Shown here: positions 24,944-39,213 of the stretch, piece after piece | How the letters are laid out: each line of letters starts with the position of its first letter | How positions within the stretch are numbered: position 1 is the first letter of the stretch | From: an uncultured Elusimicrobiales bacterium | Lineage (GTDB): Bacteria > Elusimicrobiota > Elusimicrobia > Elusimicrobiales > Elusimicrobiaceae | NCBI GenBank assembly: GCA_944327085.1 | Contig: CALVGG010000006.1 | Location: 1-64,000 of the forward strand | Direction of reading: 5' to 3' | DNA: 64,000 nt | Notes under the pieces: generated by a model | What the model was told of the DNA's origin: nothing | Seen by the model: only the letters and a program-made list of their open reading frames with translations | Database searches by the model: none | Made by a program: the position numbers and the translations under genes

Positions 24944-24964
24944 TTTACTACATTTTTTACTACA
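24944..24964. repeat. Paired TTTACTACA motifs, left end
   Basis: TTTACTACA at 24944-24952 and 24956-24964, same orientation, 12 bp apart, overlapping the int stop codon. The same pair with the same spacing recurs next to attR. They may be arm-type integrase sites. Confidence 0.6.
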
Positions 24965-26057
24965 ATTCCGGCAGTTTTTCCACCGCGCTGGCCAGAGTAA
25001 CCGGGGATAAATGGGCGTAAATTTCCGTGGTTTTTATACTGCTGTGGCCCAGCAGTTTGGATACGGTATATAGGTCCACCCCAGCCTGTACCAAATGGCT
25101 GGCAAATGTGTGGCGGAGCTTGTGCAAACTGCCCTTTAAACCGGTGCTTTTTATAAATTTTAGGTACTTGGTAACAATGCCATCAAGGGTCAGCGGGTCC
25201 CCATAATAGTCATACAATACGCGGTTACACTTATCAGAATGCGGCAAAACCTGCAAATAAGACAGCAAATCGGCCGATAGCGGGATGTCTCGGCACTCGT
25301 TGGTCTTGGGTGTCCAGCCGGGTTTAGGCTGTACGGTAAGGGTCTTTTTAGTGAAATCTATGTCCCCCCACTCCAAAAATACCATTTCCCCCCTACGCAG
25401 GCCCGCCCGTGCCCCCAGCAATGTGGCGGTTTTATAGGGGCAGTATCCACCGTGTTCTTCGGCCTTTTCGTCCGCGCACTTTAGCACTTGGGTTAATTCC
25501 TGCGGGGTAAAGAAATCCACGCGTCCTTTGGGAGTTTTAAACTTTTTAATGCGCGACAGCTTCATTTCCGGCAGCAGTTCCCACTCCGCCCCTTTGCGAA
25601 GCGCGCACTTTACCGCGCGCACCATACGGTTTATCCCCTCGTTTGACATAAGGCCAATGGGGCGCTTATCCTTTTTGGGGTTATATGTGGCGGCAAGTTT
25701 ATCTGAGGTATTTTTAAGCCAGGTTTGGAAGTTTTCCACAAGGGCGAGGTTTATTTCTTCCAGCGTTTTTGGAGAGGCAAACTCTTCAAAATAATTAAGG
25801 GCGCGGCGGTCGTGCCCCAGGGTAATGGGGCTTTTGTTGGCGCGGGACCAGTCCAAATACCGCTGTTTAAATGCCTCCCAGGTGCTGGTGCCGTATTTGG
25901 AGCGGGATTTGCTTTCCGCCTTGATGTCTGCCAGCATGCGCTGGGCCGCCGCCTTGTTTTCACACAAGGCGCACTGTTTGCGCTTGCCGTTAACCATAAC
26001 GGAACCCCAATATACCGGGGATCCGGCGCGCTTATAGACAGAAGGTAGTTTAGGCAT
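24960..26057 (-). CDS. int: Phage integrase, tyrosine recombinase
   Basis: 365 residues. An N-terminal arm-binding region ([20 protein letters not shown]), a SAM-like core-binding domain (about 55-160), then the catalytic domain. Active-site residues are visible: Arg221 (AGLRRGEM), His312 and Arg315 ([12 protein letters not shown]), His338 (LLGHSS) and Tyr347 (TEIYAHL). It recombines attP with the 3' end of tRNA-Asn. It lies 137 bp from attL, the usual placement, and reads toward it. The stop codon overlaps the paired 9-bp motifs. Confidence 0.95.
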
Positions 26058-26090: not shown

Positions 26091-26905
26091 TATTTTAACT
26101 TTATATAACAAGAATTTAAGTGATTAATAAGTTTATTATAATATTTTTCCATCAACTCTTTGGATACATCAAAATCTCCAAATAAGTAATAAAACGCGTC
26201 TGTTTCAAAGACATCAATAAAAATCATTTTATGGGAATTTTTTGCAAGGAGAAGGTCTAAATCAGACACTCTTCGCGTTTCATATGGCGTACCTGTGATT
26301 AAACTCAAAGGGGTTATTTTGGCCTTTTGGGCGATTTCCCAAACTTTGTGGGCCTCTTTATAGGTTTCCCAATCATCTTTATTACAGGGGGCAGAAAGGG
26401 CCTTTTTTAACACATCTTCCTTTGCTTGTTGTTCTTCCTTTTTTTGAGCAATCCTTTCATTACGTGTTTGTTCACTTTCATAAGATACAGGTAAGATATC
26501 ATCTGAATTATCCCGGGTCTTAATTTCTATCGTTTCCCCCTTAGGAGATTTTGCCTTCAAAACAAAAGCGTATTTATTATTTCCACAGTAATTGATACCG
26601 GGCATACAATATTCCTTGTCCGACACTACAACATCTTCTATAACAAAAGATTTTTCATCTTCCGTCTGGTATATTTTTTTGCCCAGCCAAATAGCAGAAA
26701 GTCTTTCTTTTTGCTTTTGTTGCTCTTCTTCGCGCTGTGCTTTTTCTTCCGCCTCGTATTTGATTTTTGCCGCGGCGGTTGCTTCTTTCTCGGTTTTTAC
26801 AGGGGTATCCAAGCGATAAGATTTTCCATTATAGTATCCCACATAATGCGTAGCGCACCCCGTTAATACGGCGGCAGCACAAAATAATAAAAATATTTTT
26901 TTCAT
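26090..26905 (-). CDS. Prophage lipoprotein in the repressor operon
   Basis: 271 residues. Signal peptide with lipobox (AVLTGC), then a charged coiled coil (about 40-70), a beta-rich middle with a Cys pair (EYCMPGINYC), and a second helical part. It is AT-richer than host genes. AGGAGAAAT precedes the ATG. It is last in the repressor-nuclease-lipoprotein operon, so it should be made in the lysogen. A surface role such as superinfection exclusion is inferred from position only; no family recognised. Confidence 0.72.
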   Translation of the reverse strand: MKKIFLLFCAAAVLTGCATHYVGYYNGKSYRLDTPVKTEKEATAAAKIKYEAEEKAQREEEQQKQKERLSAIWLGKKIYQTEDEKSFVIEDVVVSDKEYCMPGINYCGNNKYAFVLKAKSPKGETIEIKTRDNSDDILPVSYESEQTRNERIAQKKEEQQAKEDVLKKALSAPCNKDDWETYKEAHKVWEIAQKAKITPLSLITGTPYETRRVSDLDLLLAKNSHKMIFIDVFETDAFYYLFGDFDVSKELMEKYYNKLINHLNSCYIKLK

Positions 26906-26907
26906 TT

Positions 26908-27753
26908 TTATTTCTCCTCAGGAACTGGGGAGGTAGGTGGAACTCCTTGCTGATCGGTTGCTTGAACAGGAGTAGGTTGTTGAGTTTCGCTTCCTGTGCA
27001 AGAGTGTTCTTTTTCTTTCAACTGTTTTTTGTAAAAGCGGCGAATTTTTGCCTGGGTTTTAGAAGCATCATCCCCTTCTAAAATTTCCCGTTTAAGAACT
27101 TCTTGACGGATAATTTTTTCTATTTCTTCATTATCTACTTTTAATCCTTCTGCAAATTTGCGTAATTCCCGCCGAATAACATTAATTACCGGTTCCGACA
27201 GAATAAATCCGCCAATAACAAAACGGTTTAAACATTGCATCTTTTCGTAGTAATCTTCGCGCGAATCTTTGGAAAGGCCTTCCTTACATAAAAGGAACAG
27301 TTTTTCCTGGTCTTCTTCTTTGCGGGGGTTTAATTCCAAAATATTAAATTCGCACACTAAATCGTGGCTGATAGGTTGTTCAAAGCGAATTTTGTGGACT
27401 TGCCAATCAATGCCGTTGGTAAGGATGATCCATGGAATGCCAGAGTTAGCGCCATAGTCTGCTGCTTGTTTTAAATGGTTTTCTTTTAGTTCCGTCCCTA
27501 CCGATTTACATTCAATCAAATACTGAAATTTACCGTCAATTTTAATTGCTAAATCGCAAAAAGTACCCCTAATTGCAAGTTCACTGGTAATATCCACATA
27601 TTTATCATAACCAAATAAATCAGCCAACATATCCGTGATAATAGAAACGGTATCGCTCTCATTTTTATCAGCATCCTTGGCTTTTTGCAATACATCCTGA
27701 AAAATACGCATCTTTTTATTTAAACGTTCTGTAATTTTAGCAGGCAAAGACAT
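26908..27753 (-). CDS. HsdR_N-type PD-(D/E)xK nuclease-domain protein
   Basis: 281 residues. The core at about 40-110 matches the N-terminal nuclease domain of type I restriction subunits: VSIITDMLADLFGYDKY, FCDLAIKIDGKFQYLIECKSVG (Asp, then Glu-x-Lys), then AADYGANSGIPWIILTNGIDWQVH. No helicase, HsdM or HsdS is present. The C-terminal third is charged and ends in a low-complexity Gln/Pro/Thr tail. It is co-operonic with the repressor (12-nt gap), hence likely expressed in lysogens. A defensive or exclusion role is inference. Confidence 0.75.
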   Translation of the reverse strand: MSLPAKITERLNKKMRIFQDVLQKAKDADKNESDTVSIITDMLADLFGYDKYVDITSELAIRGTFCDLAIKIDGKFQYLIECKSVGTELKENHLKQAADYGANSGIPWIILTNGIDWQVHKIRFEQPISHDLVCEFNILELNPRKEEDQEKLFLLCKEGLSKDSREDYYEKMQCLNRFVIGGFILSEPVINVIRRELRKFAEGLKVDNEEIEKIIRQEVLKREILEGDDASKTQAKIRRFYKKQLKEKEHSCTGSETQQPTPVQATDQQGVPPTSPVPEEK

Positions 27754-27765
27754 TTCACTTCTCCT

Positions 27766-28428
27766 TTATTTTTCCATTAAGCCAAGCCAGTTTTCTTTGT
27801 CTTGGCGGCTCCAAGAGCCTATAATCAGCCCGATAATGGTTAATTCTTTGGGCGTAAACGGCTTGTATTTCGGGTTGGTGGAGCAAAGTTGAATTGTGCC
27901 GTCCTTTAACTTCTTAATCACCTTCATGCACACGCCGTTTTCCGTTCTTACTACCATGGCGCGGCCGTGCATGGGTTCTTCCGTCTTTCTTATTACGCAA
28001 TAGTCGCCCAGGTGGAGTTTGGGCTCCAAGCTGTCACCATTGCATTTAACTACAAAATCGGCGCCCGGGAATACCCAGCGCGGGATGTCCCAAAAGGTTT
28101 CCACATCGGCGTCGGAAAAGTCCGGTAGGCCGGCGGGAACATCGGCAAGGATAGGCAGGGAAATGGTGTTTTTATCCGTCAAAGGGGTTACACGCAGAGA
28201 GCGGGAAAATTCTTTATCTTCAATGCCAAAAGCGGCTTTGACTTCGCGTTCAGAAGTTTTAAATAGTTTTGAAATCTTTTCTATCTTATCAGCTGGAGGA
28301 TTTGCACGGCCTGCAACCCATGCAGACACTGTGCTATCGTCTACTTGCAATTCTCTTGCTAATCTTATTTTTGCGCCTCTTAAAACGCCATTATTCCAGT
28401 TCTGTAATAGTTTTTCTAATTCAGTCAT
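27766..28428 (-). CDS. LexA/CI-like prophage repressor (HTH + S24 peptidase)
   Basis: 220 residues. N-terminal helix-turn-helix (LARELQVDDSTVSAWVAGRANPP, about 20-45), then an S24 self-cleavage domain: Ala-Gly cleavage site in PILADVPAGLP, Ser in CNGDSLEPKL, Lys in GVCMKVIKK. It holds the lysogenic state and would be inactivated through RecA during DNA damage. The start at 28428 follows GAGGAAATT; the 30 codons upstream run through the promoter and are excluded. It heads the leftward operon. Confidence 0.92.
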   Translation of the reverse strand: MTELEKLLQNWNNGVLRGAKIRLARELQVDDSTVSAWVAGRANPPADKIEKISKLFKTSEREVKAAFGIEDKEFSRSLRVTPLTDKNTISLPILADVPAGLPDFSDADVETFWDIPRWVFPGADFVVKCNGDSLEPKLHLGDYCVIRKTEEPMHGRAMVVRTENGVCMKVIKKLKDGTIQLCSTNPKYKPFTPKELTIIGLIIGSWSRQDKENWLGLMEK

Positions 28429-28471
28429 TTTATAATTTCCTCGTCGTAAAATAGGGAAACGCAAAATCCCC

Positions 28472-28501
28472 TTGACATATCTTAAAAATCTTATTAAGAT
28501 A
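28472..28501 (+). promoter_or_regulatory. Rightward early promoter with an embedded operator
   Basis: TTGACA (28472-28477), a 17-bp spacer and TAAGAT (28495-28500). A perfect inverted repeat TATCTTAA-N8-TTAAGATA (28478-28485 with 28494-28501) fills the spacer and -10, ideal for repressor blockage; a further half-site (TTTAAGAC) follows. It lies 44 bp from the repressor start. Confidence 0.85.
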
Positions 28502-28542
28502 TTTAAGACAAGGCGCAAATCCTTGTAAAAAAGAGGTTCAGC

Positions 28543-34550: not shown

Positions 34551-34556
34551 ACAAAA

Positions 34557-34589
34557 AAAGCGTGTATATGAGGGGTATACACGCTTTTA
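34557..34589. terminator. Terminator of the early operon
   Basis: AAAAGCGTGTATA, loop, TATACACGCTTTT. It closes the early operon just before the AT-rich cargo. Confidence 0.88.
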
Positions 34590-34722
34590 CTTTGTTATCT
34601 TTATTGACAAAACTAACAATAAAATGTTATAATAAAAAATATTAATAACTATATCCTCTCTAAAAATACAATCCATTATCATAAAAGCTCATAAAAACTC
34701 TAAAAACTGCTATACTATTTCT

Positions 34723-35601
34723 ATGAGCAAAACTTCAGAAAAAGACCTCAGACAAAATAATATTGCTTCTCCGTCTATTCCTAATATTCCAGCCGATACA
34801 GATGTATATATCTATAGCGGCCCAATTCAATTTTCCAATGTAGATAAATTGAGAGATCTCATTTTAGATAAGGAAAAAAAGAACAAAAAATGTGCGCTTT
34901 TTTTAACAACTTTTGGGGGATCAGCGGATGACTCTTTTAGATTGGCTTCTTGCATAAAAAACAATTATTCGGAATTTATGTTGATTATTCCCGGGTTATG
35001 TAAAAGCGCTGGGACTCTTATTTCTATGGCTGCCAATGTCCTGTTTTTTGGACCTAAAGGAGAATTAGGGCCTTTGGATGTTCAAATGTCTCGTAGAAAA
35101 GGTGGAGATGAGAATGAGACTATTTCTGGATTAGATATCTTTTTGGCAATGGAAGTGATGTCAGATAAGATTGTGGATTCTTTTTTTAAGTTTCATTCGC
35201 AATTATCGAATAAAAGTCGTATTGCATTAAAAACTTCTATGGAAATTGCTTCTGAAATGGTTGCTAAAATGTATTCTCCAATTATGGACCAAATAAATCC
35301 CTTGGATATTGGAGAAATGCACCGAGCTATGAATATTGCTCAGGGATATGCCAAAGTTATGTCTTCTTCTAATTTTAAAAAAGACAAAATTGGCCAACTA
35401 ATAGGTGGATATCCTTGTCATAGTTTTGTTTTAGATAAAGTACAAGCCCAGGAATTTTTTAATAAGGTTCAGGATATGGAACCTTGGATGAAGCAAGTAC
35501 AGAAAGCTATTCCTATTGTAAACTTTCCTGACAGAAACGGCCTTATTTTAGATTTATCGGATATGTTAAAAAAACAGGGAGATAAAGATGACTCTAAATG
35601 A
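34723..35601 (+). CDS. ClpP-fold SDH-type serine protease (prophage cargo)
   Basis: 292 residues. Serine dehydrogenase proteinase-like ClpP/crotonase fold: LTTFGGSADD (oxyanion side), catalytic Ser95 in CKSAGTLIS, then FFGPKGELGPLDVQ. No signal peptide or membrane helix, so it is cytoplasmic. The gene is much AT-richer than its phage neighbours. A TATACT box lies 6 nt before the ATG with no Shine-Dalgarno, so it is probably leaderless with its own promoter. A 40-residue ORF overlaps its end. Its own promoter and terminator mark it as a moron; a defence role is inference. Confidence 0.82.
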   Translation: MSKTSEKDLRQNNIASPSIPNIPADTDVYIYSGPIQFSNVDKLRDLILDKEKKNKKCALFLTTFGGSADDSFRLASCIKNNYSEFMLIIPGLCKSAGTLISMAANVLFFGPKGELGPLDVQMSRRKGGDENETISGLDIFLAMEVMSDKIVDSFFKFHSQLSNKSRIALKTSMEIASEMVAKMYSPIMDQINPLDIGEMHRAMNIAQGYAKVMSSSNFKKDKIGQLIGGYPCHSFVLDKVQAQEFFNKVQDMEPWMKQVQKAIPIVNFPDRNGLILDLSDMLKKQGDKDDSK

Positions 35602-35710
35602 ACAAGTAAAAAATGCGTTGGACAAACAATCGTTTGAAGTGTTACGTTTAAGTAAAATTGTTCGGAAGAATAATTTTAATGCAAAGAATTCTTCTAATTT
35701 GTCCTTTTAA
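35588..35710 (+). CDS. 40-residue ORF coupled to the SDH-type protease
   Basis: Reads MTLNEQVKNALDKQSFEVLR and ends NAKNSSNLSF. Its ATG lies 14 nt inside the end of the protease gene, with AGGGAG 7 nt upstream, so the two are translationally coupled. It is soluble and helical at the N terminus. It could be an adaptor, inhibitor or substrate of the protease. Confidence 0.55.
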   Translation: MTLNEQVKNALDKQSFEVLRLSKIVRKNNFNAKNSSNLSF

Positions 35711-35753
35711 TTGTTTGATAAAAGACATCTTGTATCGATAAGTAGTTTTTATG

Positions 35754-35781
35754 AAAATCCCCGCTTCGGCGGGGATTTTTT
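35754..35781. terminator. UUCG-loop terminator between convergent cargo cassettes
   Basis: AATCCCCGC, loop TTCG, GCGGGGATT and a T run. A very stable hairpin after the protease pair. The next 130 bases, up to the caspase stop, hold only a short open frame without a ribosome-binding site. Confidence 0.9.
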
Positions 35782-35914
35782 GTTTGTTGTGCCCCCTACC
35801 AGCCAGGCTGGAGGAATTTTATTAGCTTTTCTTACCATACATCCAGGTGTAATTCCCAGAGGTCCTAGACAGAAATATAATAATTTTAACTATATGCCCG
35901 TTGAATAGACTTTT

Positions 35915-36649
35915 TTATTTTACAGCTACTGCAAAAGGCAAATATGGAGTTAGTATTCTTGGCTTAGATATTTGGGGGCATTGTTTTCCATTACTCTGGA
36001 TTAATACTTGTTGTTCAGCTTTGTTATGACAATGCACAATGCTCCAACAATCTATAGGGGATATAGAGTCCGCAACATTTAATAGATTATAAGAGTATAG
36101 GCCTCCACGTTGAGAGTCATCTTGGGCCGTTTGATCTATTCCACAGGCGTATACCCGAATAGTTTGAGGCTGGCACATATTAATTTGTTCATCATAATAT
36201 TTGCGACATTTTTCTCTATCCAAGAAAAACAAGCTGTTATCTTTCGCATTAACTATACGTGAAAAACGGAACGAAGGAACATATTTTTCCCGGCAGCAAT
36301 CTGCAATAAGAATTGCCTTCGATGGAAAATAATCTAACAAACTGTTTTCTGCTACACCAGCTGTGCTATTTAACATAAAAACATTTGTATCTAGCTTAGG
36401 GTTGTAGTAGCCGTGTCCACAAAAAACCATAATAAAAAAATCCAAATTGCCTTTTATGGAATCTAAATATTTTTTCAGGTCTTTAGGTGTAGGGGTTTGT
36501 AACACTGTTACATCGTCTGGAAAATAAGCCCCCCCTTTAGGAGAGCAAAAAAACTTATAATACCTTTGTTGATCTATTAAGACGCCACGGCAGTAATTTT
36601 CATCGTTGAGAGTGCCAGGATTAGTAATAATTAAGGCTTTTCTTTTCAT
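35915..36649 (-). CDS. Caspase-like (C14 family) protease, prophage cargo
   Basis: 244 residues, one compact p20-like domain. The His of the dyad is His79 in MVFCGHGYY; the Cys is in ILIADCCRE (Cys119, as in metacaspase DCCHSG). No CHAT-type fusion, repeats or signal peptide. The gene is AT-rich. AGGAGAC precedes the ATG, which overlaps the stop of the upstream membrane protein by 4 nt, so the two form one unit. Bacterial caspase-like proteases are often abortive-infection effectors, and that role here is inferred from family and position. Confidence 0.82.
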   Translation of the reverse strand: MKRKALIITNPGTLNDENYCRGVLIDQQRYYKFFCSPKGGAYFPDDVTVLQTPTPKDLKKYLDSIKGNLDFFIMVFCGHGYYNPKLDTNVFMLNSTAGVAENSLLDYFPSKAILIADCCREKYVPSFRFSRIVNAKDNSLFFLDREKCRKYYDEQINMCQPQTIRVYACGIDQTAQDDSQRGGLYSYNLLNVADSISPIDCWSIVHCHNKAEQQVLIQSNGKQCPQISKPRILTPYLPFAVAVK

Positions 36650-37431
36650 AAATTGTCTCCTAAAGTTTTATAATTAAATGGCAACTTTGTTAATAGCGAT
36701 GGAGCCAAGCGTTCACTAGCCCCAGCAATAAAACCACAAAGTAATAATATATGGTAGTCTGTGTTGTCGTGGTTTATTAGAAATAATAGCACTTTGCTTT
36801 TAATACATAAGATGATAAATAGTGAAGATAAAATCCCAGCAATAATGCGACAACCTCCTTCTAAATAATGTAACTTTTTACTGGCATTATAGTTGGGGAA
36901 ACTATAACCCATCCGTAAAATAACCGAAAATAAAGCGCCTAAACCTCCCAGCAATAGTGCTAATATAGAGTAAAAACTGTCTGTTGATAGGGAGGAATGT
37001 TTCGCAAAAATTAACAATATAATACAAACGACAACGAAACCAGCTATAAGACTGCCTTTAAGAAATAAATATCGAGAAGTTTCAATTTGTCTGTCATGTA
37101 TATATTCTTCTGCTAAATTTAACATTTTTTCTGCTTGCTCATAATTTTTATTTAGGGCCAAAGCTAAAGCTTCTCCTAATTGTTTTTTAAATTCAATAAT
37201 TATTTCTTTTGACAAATTGGGCCTAAAGAAATGCTCCAAACCAGATAAACGGGTTGTAATTTTATCTAAGGATTTTCGTTCCTCATTAGACATCTTTTTA
37301 TCATAACTATCACTAGTTTTCCAATCTAAGTCATTTTCAGGATCTAAAAAAACAACAAACTGCTTAGGACAGGATAAAATTAAAAAACCAATATTTACAT
37401 CGGGCCAATCTTTTTGATAGTCTTGTTTCAT
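36646..37431 (-). CDS. Four-helix membrane protein partner of the caspase-like protease
   Basis: 261 residues. A cytoplasmic helical N-terminal domain (about 1-120, with a TPR-like NKNYEQAEKMLNLAEEYI), then four hydrophobic segments (about 120-145, 150-172, 193-222, 228-248). Between helices 2 and 3 comes GALFSVILRM, and the last segment contains GFIAGASERLAPSLL, a motif I have seen in uncharacterised membrane proteins beside effectors. It starts the two-gene caspase operon. It could be the sensor or a pore-forming substrate; sequence alone does not decide. Confidence 0.7.
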   Translation of the reverse strand: MKQDYQKDWPDVNIGFLILSCPKQFVVFLDPENDLDWKTSDSYDKKMSNEERKSLDKITTRLSGLEHFFRPNLSKEIIIEFKKQLGEALALALNKNYEQAEKMLNLAEEYIHDRQIETSRYLFLKGSLIAGFVVVCIILLIFAKHSSLSTDSFYSILALLLGGLGALFSVILRMGYSFPNYNASKKLHYLEGGCRIIAGILSSLFIILCIKSKVLLFLINHDNTDYHILLLCGFIAGASERLAPSLLTKLPFNYKTLGDNL

Positions 37432-37525
37432 TTTATTTGCACTCTATTTAATTAAAGATAGAAATATATGTAATTATAATAGATTATATCTTAATTCACA
37501 AACAGAAAGGTTAACATCCCCCGAC

Positions 37526-37644: not shown

Positions 37645-39213
37645 GTGGCAACAAAACTTAACAAACAACAAGAAGATTTTGCAAAAGCCGTCTTGACCGA
37701 AAAGACGGCCGTTGCCGCATGGAAAAAAAGCCACCCGGGCAGTAAGGCCAGTGCCAAAACGGCCAAAGAAAAGGCCAGCCGCCTTTTAAAAAACCCGGCA
37801 GTGGCCAGCCGGATAGCAGCGCTTAGGCAACAGGCTGCCGGCCCGGCTATTATGACGCTGGCAGACATTTTGAATTTTTGGTCTTTGACAACGCAAAACG
37901 GCAGTGAGGATATATTTGCCCGCTTATCGGCCAGTAAAGCACTGGCCCAGCATTACTACAAGCTGGAAGCCAAACAAAACGCGCCCCAGCCGGTGCAGGA
38001 GCCCCCGCAAAACGCGGCAGATTTTGCCCAATTTTGCGAGCGCCACGCTTATCCCCGGCCCTACCCAAAACAGGTAGAAATGGCCGAATTTGTGCAAGGA
38101 AGCGGCCCTCGGCTGGTATTAGGCTCGCGCGGTTACGGCAAGACGGATTACGCGGTTATCTGTGCCCCCGCCTGGCAAATACTGCACAATCCGCAGGACA
38201 CGTATCTTATCCTTACCAAAGAAAAAGCGCGCGGCACGGAAATCATAAGCGAAATTGCCCGCATTTTGACCGAGGAAGGCGTTAGCCTTGCCAAAAGCAG
38301 TTCCCTGCGCCTGGTGCTGGCGGGGCACACCGGCAAAGACCCCAACGTGGCGGTACTTCCGCTACGCAGTAAGTCTTTCCGCGGCCGCCACCCCAAGCAT
38401 ATTATTTGCGACGACCTTATCACCCCCGACGACGTGAGCAAGGCCGAGCGCGACAAGGTGGAAGCCGTGCGGGCCGAACTTATGAAGCTGACCGAAAACG
38501 TTTGCTTTATCGGCCAGCCGGCCCACGCCAAAGACGTATACGCCAAACTGCGCAAACTGCCCGGCGTAAAAAAGCTGGAAGTACCTTACGGCTCTATCCC
38601 GCAGCTGGACGTTAATTTAGACGCCCAACGCGCCGCCGGCATTAGCGAGGAAAGCATACAGGCAAGCTACTTCCTGCAAATTGGCGAGGCCGAGCGCATG
38701 CCCTTTTCGGGTGTGGAATATGTGGACTTCTTCCCCAGTGGCACCAGTACAGGGTTTATAGACCCCAGCCACGAAGGGGTAGACTACACCGCCATGGCGA
38801 TAGGCGCCATGAATTTTGACCGCTTTATCGTGGCGGGTTTTGCCTGGCCCAAAGCGTGGGACGATTGTCTGGAAGACATCCTAAGCGTAATAAAAGCGTA
38901 CCGTGTAGCCTGTTTTGCGTTTGAAACCAACGGCCTGGGTAAACATCCCGTTATTTTGCTTCGCCGCATGGGGGCCCGGGTGGACGAGTGGAAAAGCACC
39001 GAAAACAAACACGGCCGCATTTTAAACGCGGCTACCGGCAAGCAGTTTATAAAGCTGGCCCAATATTTGCCGCCCGAGCTTCAAACCCCGGCGTTTAGGC
39101 AGGCGCAGCAGACGTTTAACAATATGGTTTTGGACTATGAATACAAGGCCGAGCACGACGACGCGCCCGACGCGCTGGCCAACTTAATGAAATATGTAGG
39201 ACTGGTAAAATAA
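37645..39213 (+). CDS. Terminase, fused small- and large-subunit-like regions
   Basis: 522 residues. Residues 1-90 resemble a terminase small subunit (KQQEDFAKAVLTEKTAVAAW, SRLLKNPAVASRIAAL). The rest is a TerL ATPase-nuclease: Walker A LGSRGYGKTD (159-168), Walker B HIICDDL (about 252), and acidic nuclease residues in FIDPS and DDAPDAL. It packages DNA into proheads. The start is GTG without a clear Shine-Dalgarno. No separate small-subunit gene is seen in the prophage. It is the first late gene; its stop overlaps the portal start. Confidence 0.85.
   Translation: MATKLNKQQEDFAKAVLTEKTAVAAWKKSHPGSKASAKTAKEKASRLLKNPAVASRIAALRQQAAGPAIMTLADILNFWSLTTQNGSEDIFARLSASKALAQHYYKLEAKQNAPQPVQEPPQNAADFAQFCERHAYPRPYPKQVEMAEFVQGSGPRLVLGSRGYGKTDYAVICAPAWQILHNPQDTYLILTKEKARGTEIISEIARILTEEGVSLAKSSSLRLVLAGHTGKDPNVAVLPLRSKSFRGRHPKHIICDDLITPDDVSKAERDKVEAVRAELMKLTENVCFIGQPAHAKDVYAKLRKLPGVKKLEVPYGSIPQLDVNLDAQRAAGISEESIQASYFLQIGEAERMPFSGVEYVDFFPSGTSTGFIDPSHEGVDYTAMAIGAMNFDRFIVAGFAWPKAWDDCLEDILSVIKAYRVACFAFETNGLGKHPVILLRRMGARVDEWKSTENKHGRILNAATGKQFIKLAQYLPPELQTPAFRQAQQTFNNMVLDYEYKAEHDDAPDALANLMKYVGLVK

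Follow-up and report, generated by a model that had tools for sequence, protein, structure and literature searches.

A protease gene and a small overlapping reading frame in a prophage cargo slot

The window, which is the whole stretch of 64,000 nt analysed here from a contig of an uncultured Elusimicrobiales bacterium, carries a prophage with an integrase gene (24963-26057), a CI-like repressor gene (27769-28518), RecT, a methylase, a terminase gene at 37645 and a tail-collar protein. The prophage contains a cargo region with a GC content of 34% compared to ~50% in the adjacent phage genes, in agreement with the strong AT-richness reported in the initial annotation of this DNA. A protease ORF and a 40-codon ORF that overlaps its end by 14 nt were both present as described there. 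The features of the locus are as follows.

34556-34588, + strand: intrinsic terminator closing the methylase gene (14-pair stem, -18.3 kcal/mol, z -6.5)
34604-34633, + strand: sigma-70 promoter TTGACA-N18-TATAAT with TG before the -10 box (12/12 matches)
34634-37515, no strand: variable cargo slot, where homology to the sister prophage L195 breaks off except at a common terminator
34711-34716, + strand: TATACT, 6 nt before the protease ATG, no -35 box found, absent from the sister prophage
34723-35601, + strand: protease ORF, Clp-fold serine protease of Ser-Asp-His order, 292 aa
35005-35007, + strand: Ser95 codon (CKSAG), invariant
35077-35079, + strand: Asp119 codon (ELGPLDVQ), invariant
35419-35421, + strand: His233 codon (YPCHSFV), invariant
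35577-35581, + strand: Shine-Dalgarno site GGGAG of the small ORF, 6 nt upstream of its ATG
35588-35710, + strand: small partner ORF, 40 aa, in the +1 frame relative to the protease
35753-35780, + strand: UUCG-loop intrinsic terminator (12-pair stem, -19.5 kcal/mol, z -4.7)

The unit is insulated on both sides, since the terminator of the upstream methylase gene and the UUCG-loop terminator downstream flank the promoter and the genes. The UUCG-loop terminator had been recognised in the initial annotation, and its 28 nt occur only once in the genome of the window. The TATACT hexamer had been read as the -10 box of the protease gene; the hexamer is there, but as a promoter it gives way to the perfect sigma-70 element further upstream. 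The protease ATG is not preceded by a clear Shine-Dalgarno site.

We compared the locus with the sister prophage, L195, which lies in another genome of the genus. Identity between the two is 97.5% up to position 34634, where the -10 box ends, and from position 37516 onwards. L195 keeps the promoter, where the long homology ends, and has no protease gene. Its slot is filled by two other ORFs, one of 227 aa and one of 42 aa, the shorter with a strong Shine-Dalgarno site; the same 28-nt terminator follows. Because L195 keeps both elements around different genes, the cargo has been swapped while promoter and terminator stayed in place. With a promoter and a terminator of their own, and absent from a close relative, the protease gene and the small ORF form an autonomous cargo cassette of the kind known as a phage moron. 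The exact swap in L195 thus bears out the earlier view of a self-contained cargo unit, as does the occurrence of the protease family in only 1 of 340 genomes of Elusimicrobiota, that of the window. The alternative cargo of L195 (6129-6950) occupies the same slot with the same layout as in the window. The N-terminus of its 227-aa protein, MTICIAALADQGKSAILACDK, resembles by eye that of a proteasome-type Ntn-hydrolase, which we note as a lead only; this protein had no match in Pfam, PDB, PHROGs or the phage, plasmid and viral collections.

On the opposite strand, a convergent unit (35915-37431) encodes the sole caspase-family peptidase of the genome (PF00656, 1e-13) and a second protein of 261 aa with membrane-like stretches. 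Two types of protease in adjacent convergent units are therefore present, as initially noted, and in L195 the caspase unit is exchanged together with the protease unit. The further proposal that the two units are paired or compete found no support beyond their adjacency.

The protease and its relatives

The AlphaFold model of the protease had a pLDDT of 90.7, and a PDB fold search with this model returned SppA and ClpP chains on top, with Z scores of up to 14.8 for ClpP chains. On this modelling, the protein can confidently be placed in the Clp fold as a predicted Clp/SppA-fold enzyme. At the profile level, it scored over the family cut-off of CLP_protease (PF00574), although the match is still weak, and below the cut-offs of SDH_protease (PF01972; 7e-6, 25.7 bits against a curated cut-off of 31.3 bits) and of the NCBIfam SDH family NF047768 (33 bits against 250 bits). 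The strongest match was to PHROG 21683 (1.6e-55), covering residues 24-251. The order of the residues Ser, Asp and His separates SDH-type enzymes from ClpP. The protease has the Ser, Asp, His order of PF01972, and Ser95, Asp119 and His233 showed no variation across an alignment of 110 relatives; their catalytic role is predicted. Together, these results uphold the earlier assignment to an SDH-type ClpP fold. The protein shares with the SDH-type ClpP-like serine proteinases the Clp fold, the residue order and weak profile matches, whereas it scores under both of their cut-offs. Its direct homologues are PHROG 21683 and the RefSeq 'SDH family Clp fold serine proteinase' of E. coli prophages. The family therefore already has a RefSeq name and a PHROG number, without an assigned function.

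Single-protein pattern scans with the window protease returned no close relatives. With tblastn, relatives turned up in a Klebsiella phage, two Proteus records and a Methylovorus plasmid; a search at the DNA level matched 48 of 5,426 E. coli genomes. The family was recovered only by a profile search built on nine sequences, which yielded 160 loci, divided equally between genomes and viral contigs (80 each). According to the record titles, the genome loci span many phyla, including Pseudomonadota, Cyanobacteria, Chloroflexota, Acidobacteriota, Gemmatimonadota, Bacteroidota, Planctomycetota and Omnitrophota.

The overlapping partner gene

We asked how often a small ORF accompanies the protease gene. 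Among 111 non-redundant relatives, a +1 ORF that begins with ATG and has 35 aa or more overlaps the protease end in 97, with a median length of 60 aa, and in 78 of these it is preceded by a Shine-Dalgarno site of at least 4 bases. In ~5 more the ORF starts at an ATGA junction or just past the protease stop, and ~9 have no clear partner ORF. The conservation that the initial annotation had proposed for checking was thus found in ~102 of 111 homologues, and the refuting condition set there, a lack of small ORFs among homologues, failed. Two relatives, L059 and L073, have in common a partner bearing the motif SPSLRELLN-QQD-FQRALGG at an ATGA junction just after the protease, unlike the deep +1 overlap elsewhere.

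With 40 aa, the small ORF of the window falls below the family norm of ~60 aa, and phmmer detected no homologue of it, including among the other partners. Under a first-order Markov null of the same composition, 0.4% of sequences gave an ATG, a Shine-Dalgarno site and at least 40 open codons at the protease end. Since there is no detectable homologue, its identity as the partner seen in relatives rests on position, frame, Shine-Dalgarno site and coupling, which together suggest that it is the same gene.

In nearly every relative, the +1 frame is open across the hydrophilic tail of the protease and past the protease stop. We rejected this openness as evidence for a gene, as synonymously shuffled sequences were equally open (Fisher p 0.58). 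An open +1 frame is expected here without selection because hydrophilic tails lack the codons that create +1 stops. This result, together with the lack of detectable homologues of the window's own ORF, would fit the overlapping ORF being a by-product of composition rather than a gene. Codon-position divergence contradicts this for the family. In 23 pairs of relatives (not all independent, as several have a common member), divergence at codon positions 1, 2 and 3 of the protease core was.10,.04 and.44. In the overlap, protease position 3, which is position 2 of the +1 frame, dropped to.21 (p 7e-56), and protease position 1, which is the wobble position of the +1 frame, climbed to.27. The wobble drop was seen in 22 of the 23 pairs, with one tie. 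Past the protease stop, the +1 ORF retained a third-position bias (.21/.18/.36). The inversion of codon-position divergence in the overlap indicates that both frames are under selection, and relaxed selection on the protease tail does not account for the wobble drop, since relaxation cannot lower wobble divergence. On these sequence comparisons, the overlapping partner gene of the family is selected as a protein. With ATGs and Shine-Dalgarno sites also recurring across relatives, we consider an origin of the ORF in composition very improbable.

The overlapping frame is nearly always +1 relative to the protease, as would be expected if a programmed ribosomal frameshift gave the protease an alternative C-terminus. 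However, most relatives have an ATG and a Shine-Dalgarno site for the small ORF, some ORFs lie at an ATGA junction or after a gap, and the product stays near 60 aa although the extent of the overlap varies. This variation between overlap, junction and gap arrangements argues for a separate protein, and we give hardly any credence to a frameshift product.

The arrangement has a precedent in Rz/Rz1 of lambda, an overlapping phage gene pair in which the small gene is out of frame. The protease and its partner share with such pairs the placement of a small gene out of frame inside a larger phage gene or over its end. In contrast, the function of Rz/Rz1 is unrelated to that of the protease and partner pair, and the small product has no lipoprotein or membrane features. 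The partner gene was unannotated in each of the six annotated records of relatives that we examined. It appears undescribed in the open literature, where we also found no description of the module (most subscription journals and bioRxiv preprints lie outside this scope). As the partner appears to have been missed by annotation across the family, cloning the annotated protease alone would take half a system, and deleting it would disturb two genes.

Position in the rex slot and a proposed role

In lambda, rexAB are coupled genes between cI and N that are expressed in the lysogen and provide superinfection exclusion. In E. coli strain 13C1065T, the protease module lies between a LexA-type cI and N. 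Among the matches listed, the homology of this cI to other genomes ends at the end of cI. E. coli PG20180059 has rexA and rexB after a 97.9%-identical cI. Downstream of a second cI type in E. coli lies the protease in one strain and a HigB-type unit in a different strain. The module also follows cI in Proteus, and in other E. coli genomes the protease adjoins DinI and tail-fibre or tail genes, positions typical of moron sites. The E. coli module thus shares with lambda RexAB the two coupled genes and the cI-N slot after a 98%-identical cI. Beyond this likeness of position, RexAB has no sequence relation to the protease or the small helical protein: searches of Pfam, PHROGs, NCBIfam and PADLOC gave no rexA or rexB match for either. 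The products also differ in kind, RexB being a membrane protein. The cI-N location applies to the E. coli relatives and not to the window, whose cargo unit sits before the terminase gene.

CI/S24-type repressors were among the commonest neighbours of the relatives, accounting for 13-15 of the 104 neighbour proteins scanned. This frequency, and the position of the module after cI in E. coli and Proteus, could point to a role in lysogeny control, in which the protease, tuned by the small protein, would cleave or stabilise a neighbouring CI-type repressor or another phage regulator. However, many relatives have no adjacent repressor and lie, for example, next to phage-tail genes or in an inovirus-like plasmid, and the CI-like repressor of the window is 6 kb from the protease unit on the opposite strand. 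S24 repressors, moreover, cleave themselves with RecA. We regard a role in lysogeny control as distinctly unlikely.

We examined the locus and its relatives for links to known defence systems. The protease, the small ORF and the two proteins of the caspase unit matched no PADLOC defence model. PADLOC matches among the neighbours of relatives were mostly helix-turn-helix regulators, and a defence-island setting was rejected, as the single BstA, bSEFIR and restriction-enzyme matches and two CapP matches were too few. The earlier suggestion of defence cargo finds support only in position, through the rexAB slot of E. coli and the adjacent CI-type repressors, and has no counterpart among PADLOC models. 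BstA and gipd474, accessory genes of prophage immunity regions, protect lysogens (PMC8585504, PMC12724215). The module resembles them as an accessory of such regions, and differs in that its protease matches no PADLOC model. We place the module in an established category, the accessory modules that prophages carry in the rex slot, and do not see it as a category of its own.

The reading we favour, if tentatively and with somewhat less than an even chance of being right, is that of a lysogen-expressed exclusion module like those of the rex slot, in which the small helical protein would be coupled to the protease as its partner or regulator. The location of E. coli relatives in the rexAB slot and likely expression in the lysogen suggest superinfection exclusion, although the same slot can serve non-defence functions. 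The translational coupling and near-constant linkage of the two genes make it plausible that the partner regulates or directs the protease. In its anatomy, the module joins a cytosolic protease (Clp fold, Ser-Asp-His order) and a small partner whose gene lies in the +1 frame and is translationally coupled. In most relatives the partner has ~60 aa and is encoded largely within the DNA of the protease's disordered tail; in the window the putative partner is shorter and the overlap short. In the lysogen, the window module is expected to be expressed from its own strong sigma-70 promoter. The small, mostly helical partner would bind the protease and either keep it inactive or direct it. Infection by another phage may then upset the state of partner and protease, and the protease could cleave phage or host proteins, such that the incoming phage fails.

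The main alternative is that the small protein is itself the effector or toxin, which the protease would either degrade in the quiet lysogen, acting as an antitoxin, or cut to activate it on infection. Hydrophobic C-termini are more frequent among the partners than among neighbouring proteins (0.61 vs 0.35) and could serve as a protease-recognised tail, and the HigB toxin unit found in the same E. coli slot is also consistent with a toxin. Coupled, overlapping translation, as seen here, is common in toxin-antitoxin pairs. However, the small protein matched no toxin family in Pfam or NCBIfam and, in the one enteric subfamily modelled, is predicted to be helical, with one long helix (residues 3-45) and a less certain second helix. 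The C-terminal composition may, moreover, stem in part from the shared DNA. The partners are also basic (median charge +5) compared to the acidic protease tail (median -7), a contrast that we did not use as evidence because the shared coding sequence in part imposes it. Overall, we consider a toxin partner rather unlikely.

Beyond the window, the favoured exclusion reading may extend to the whole family, a generalisation that we hold a little more cautiously still: a widespread system of two genes by which prophages and other mobile elements would exclude phages, distributed over many phyla and standing in for rexAB in E. coli prophages, with its regulator or trigger hidden out of frame in the 3' end of the protease gene. 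Should phage exclusion be borne out, the module would represent a defence based on a Clp-fold protease that brings its own partner, and its place in the rex slot of E. coli would allow its direct comparison with rexAB in the same phage.

Two further observations concern the window prophage. Between the integrase and the CI-like repressor genes, an AT-rich stretch on the minus strand (26093-27753) encodes a lipoprotein and an HSDR_N-type protein and is a probable further cargo site. The small and large terminase subunits are fused in a single 522-aa ORF (37645-39213), and in the related genome G138 the terminase match is split over two frames.
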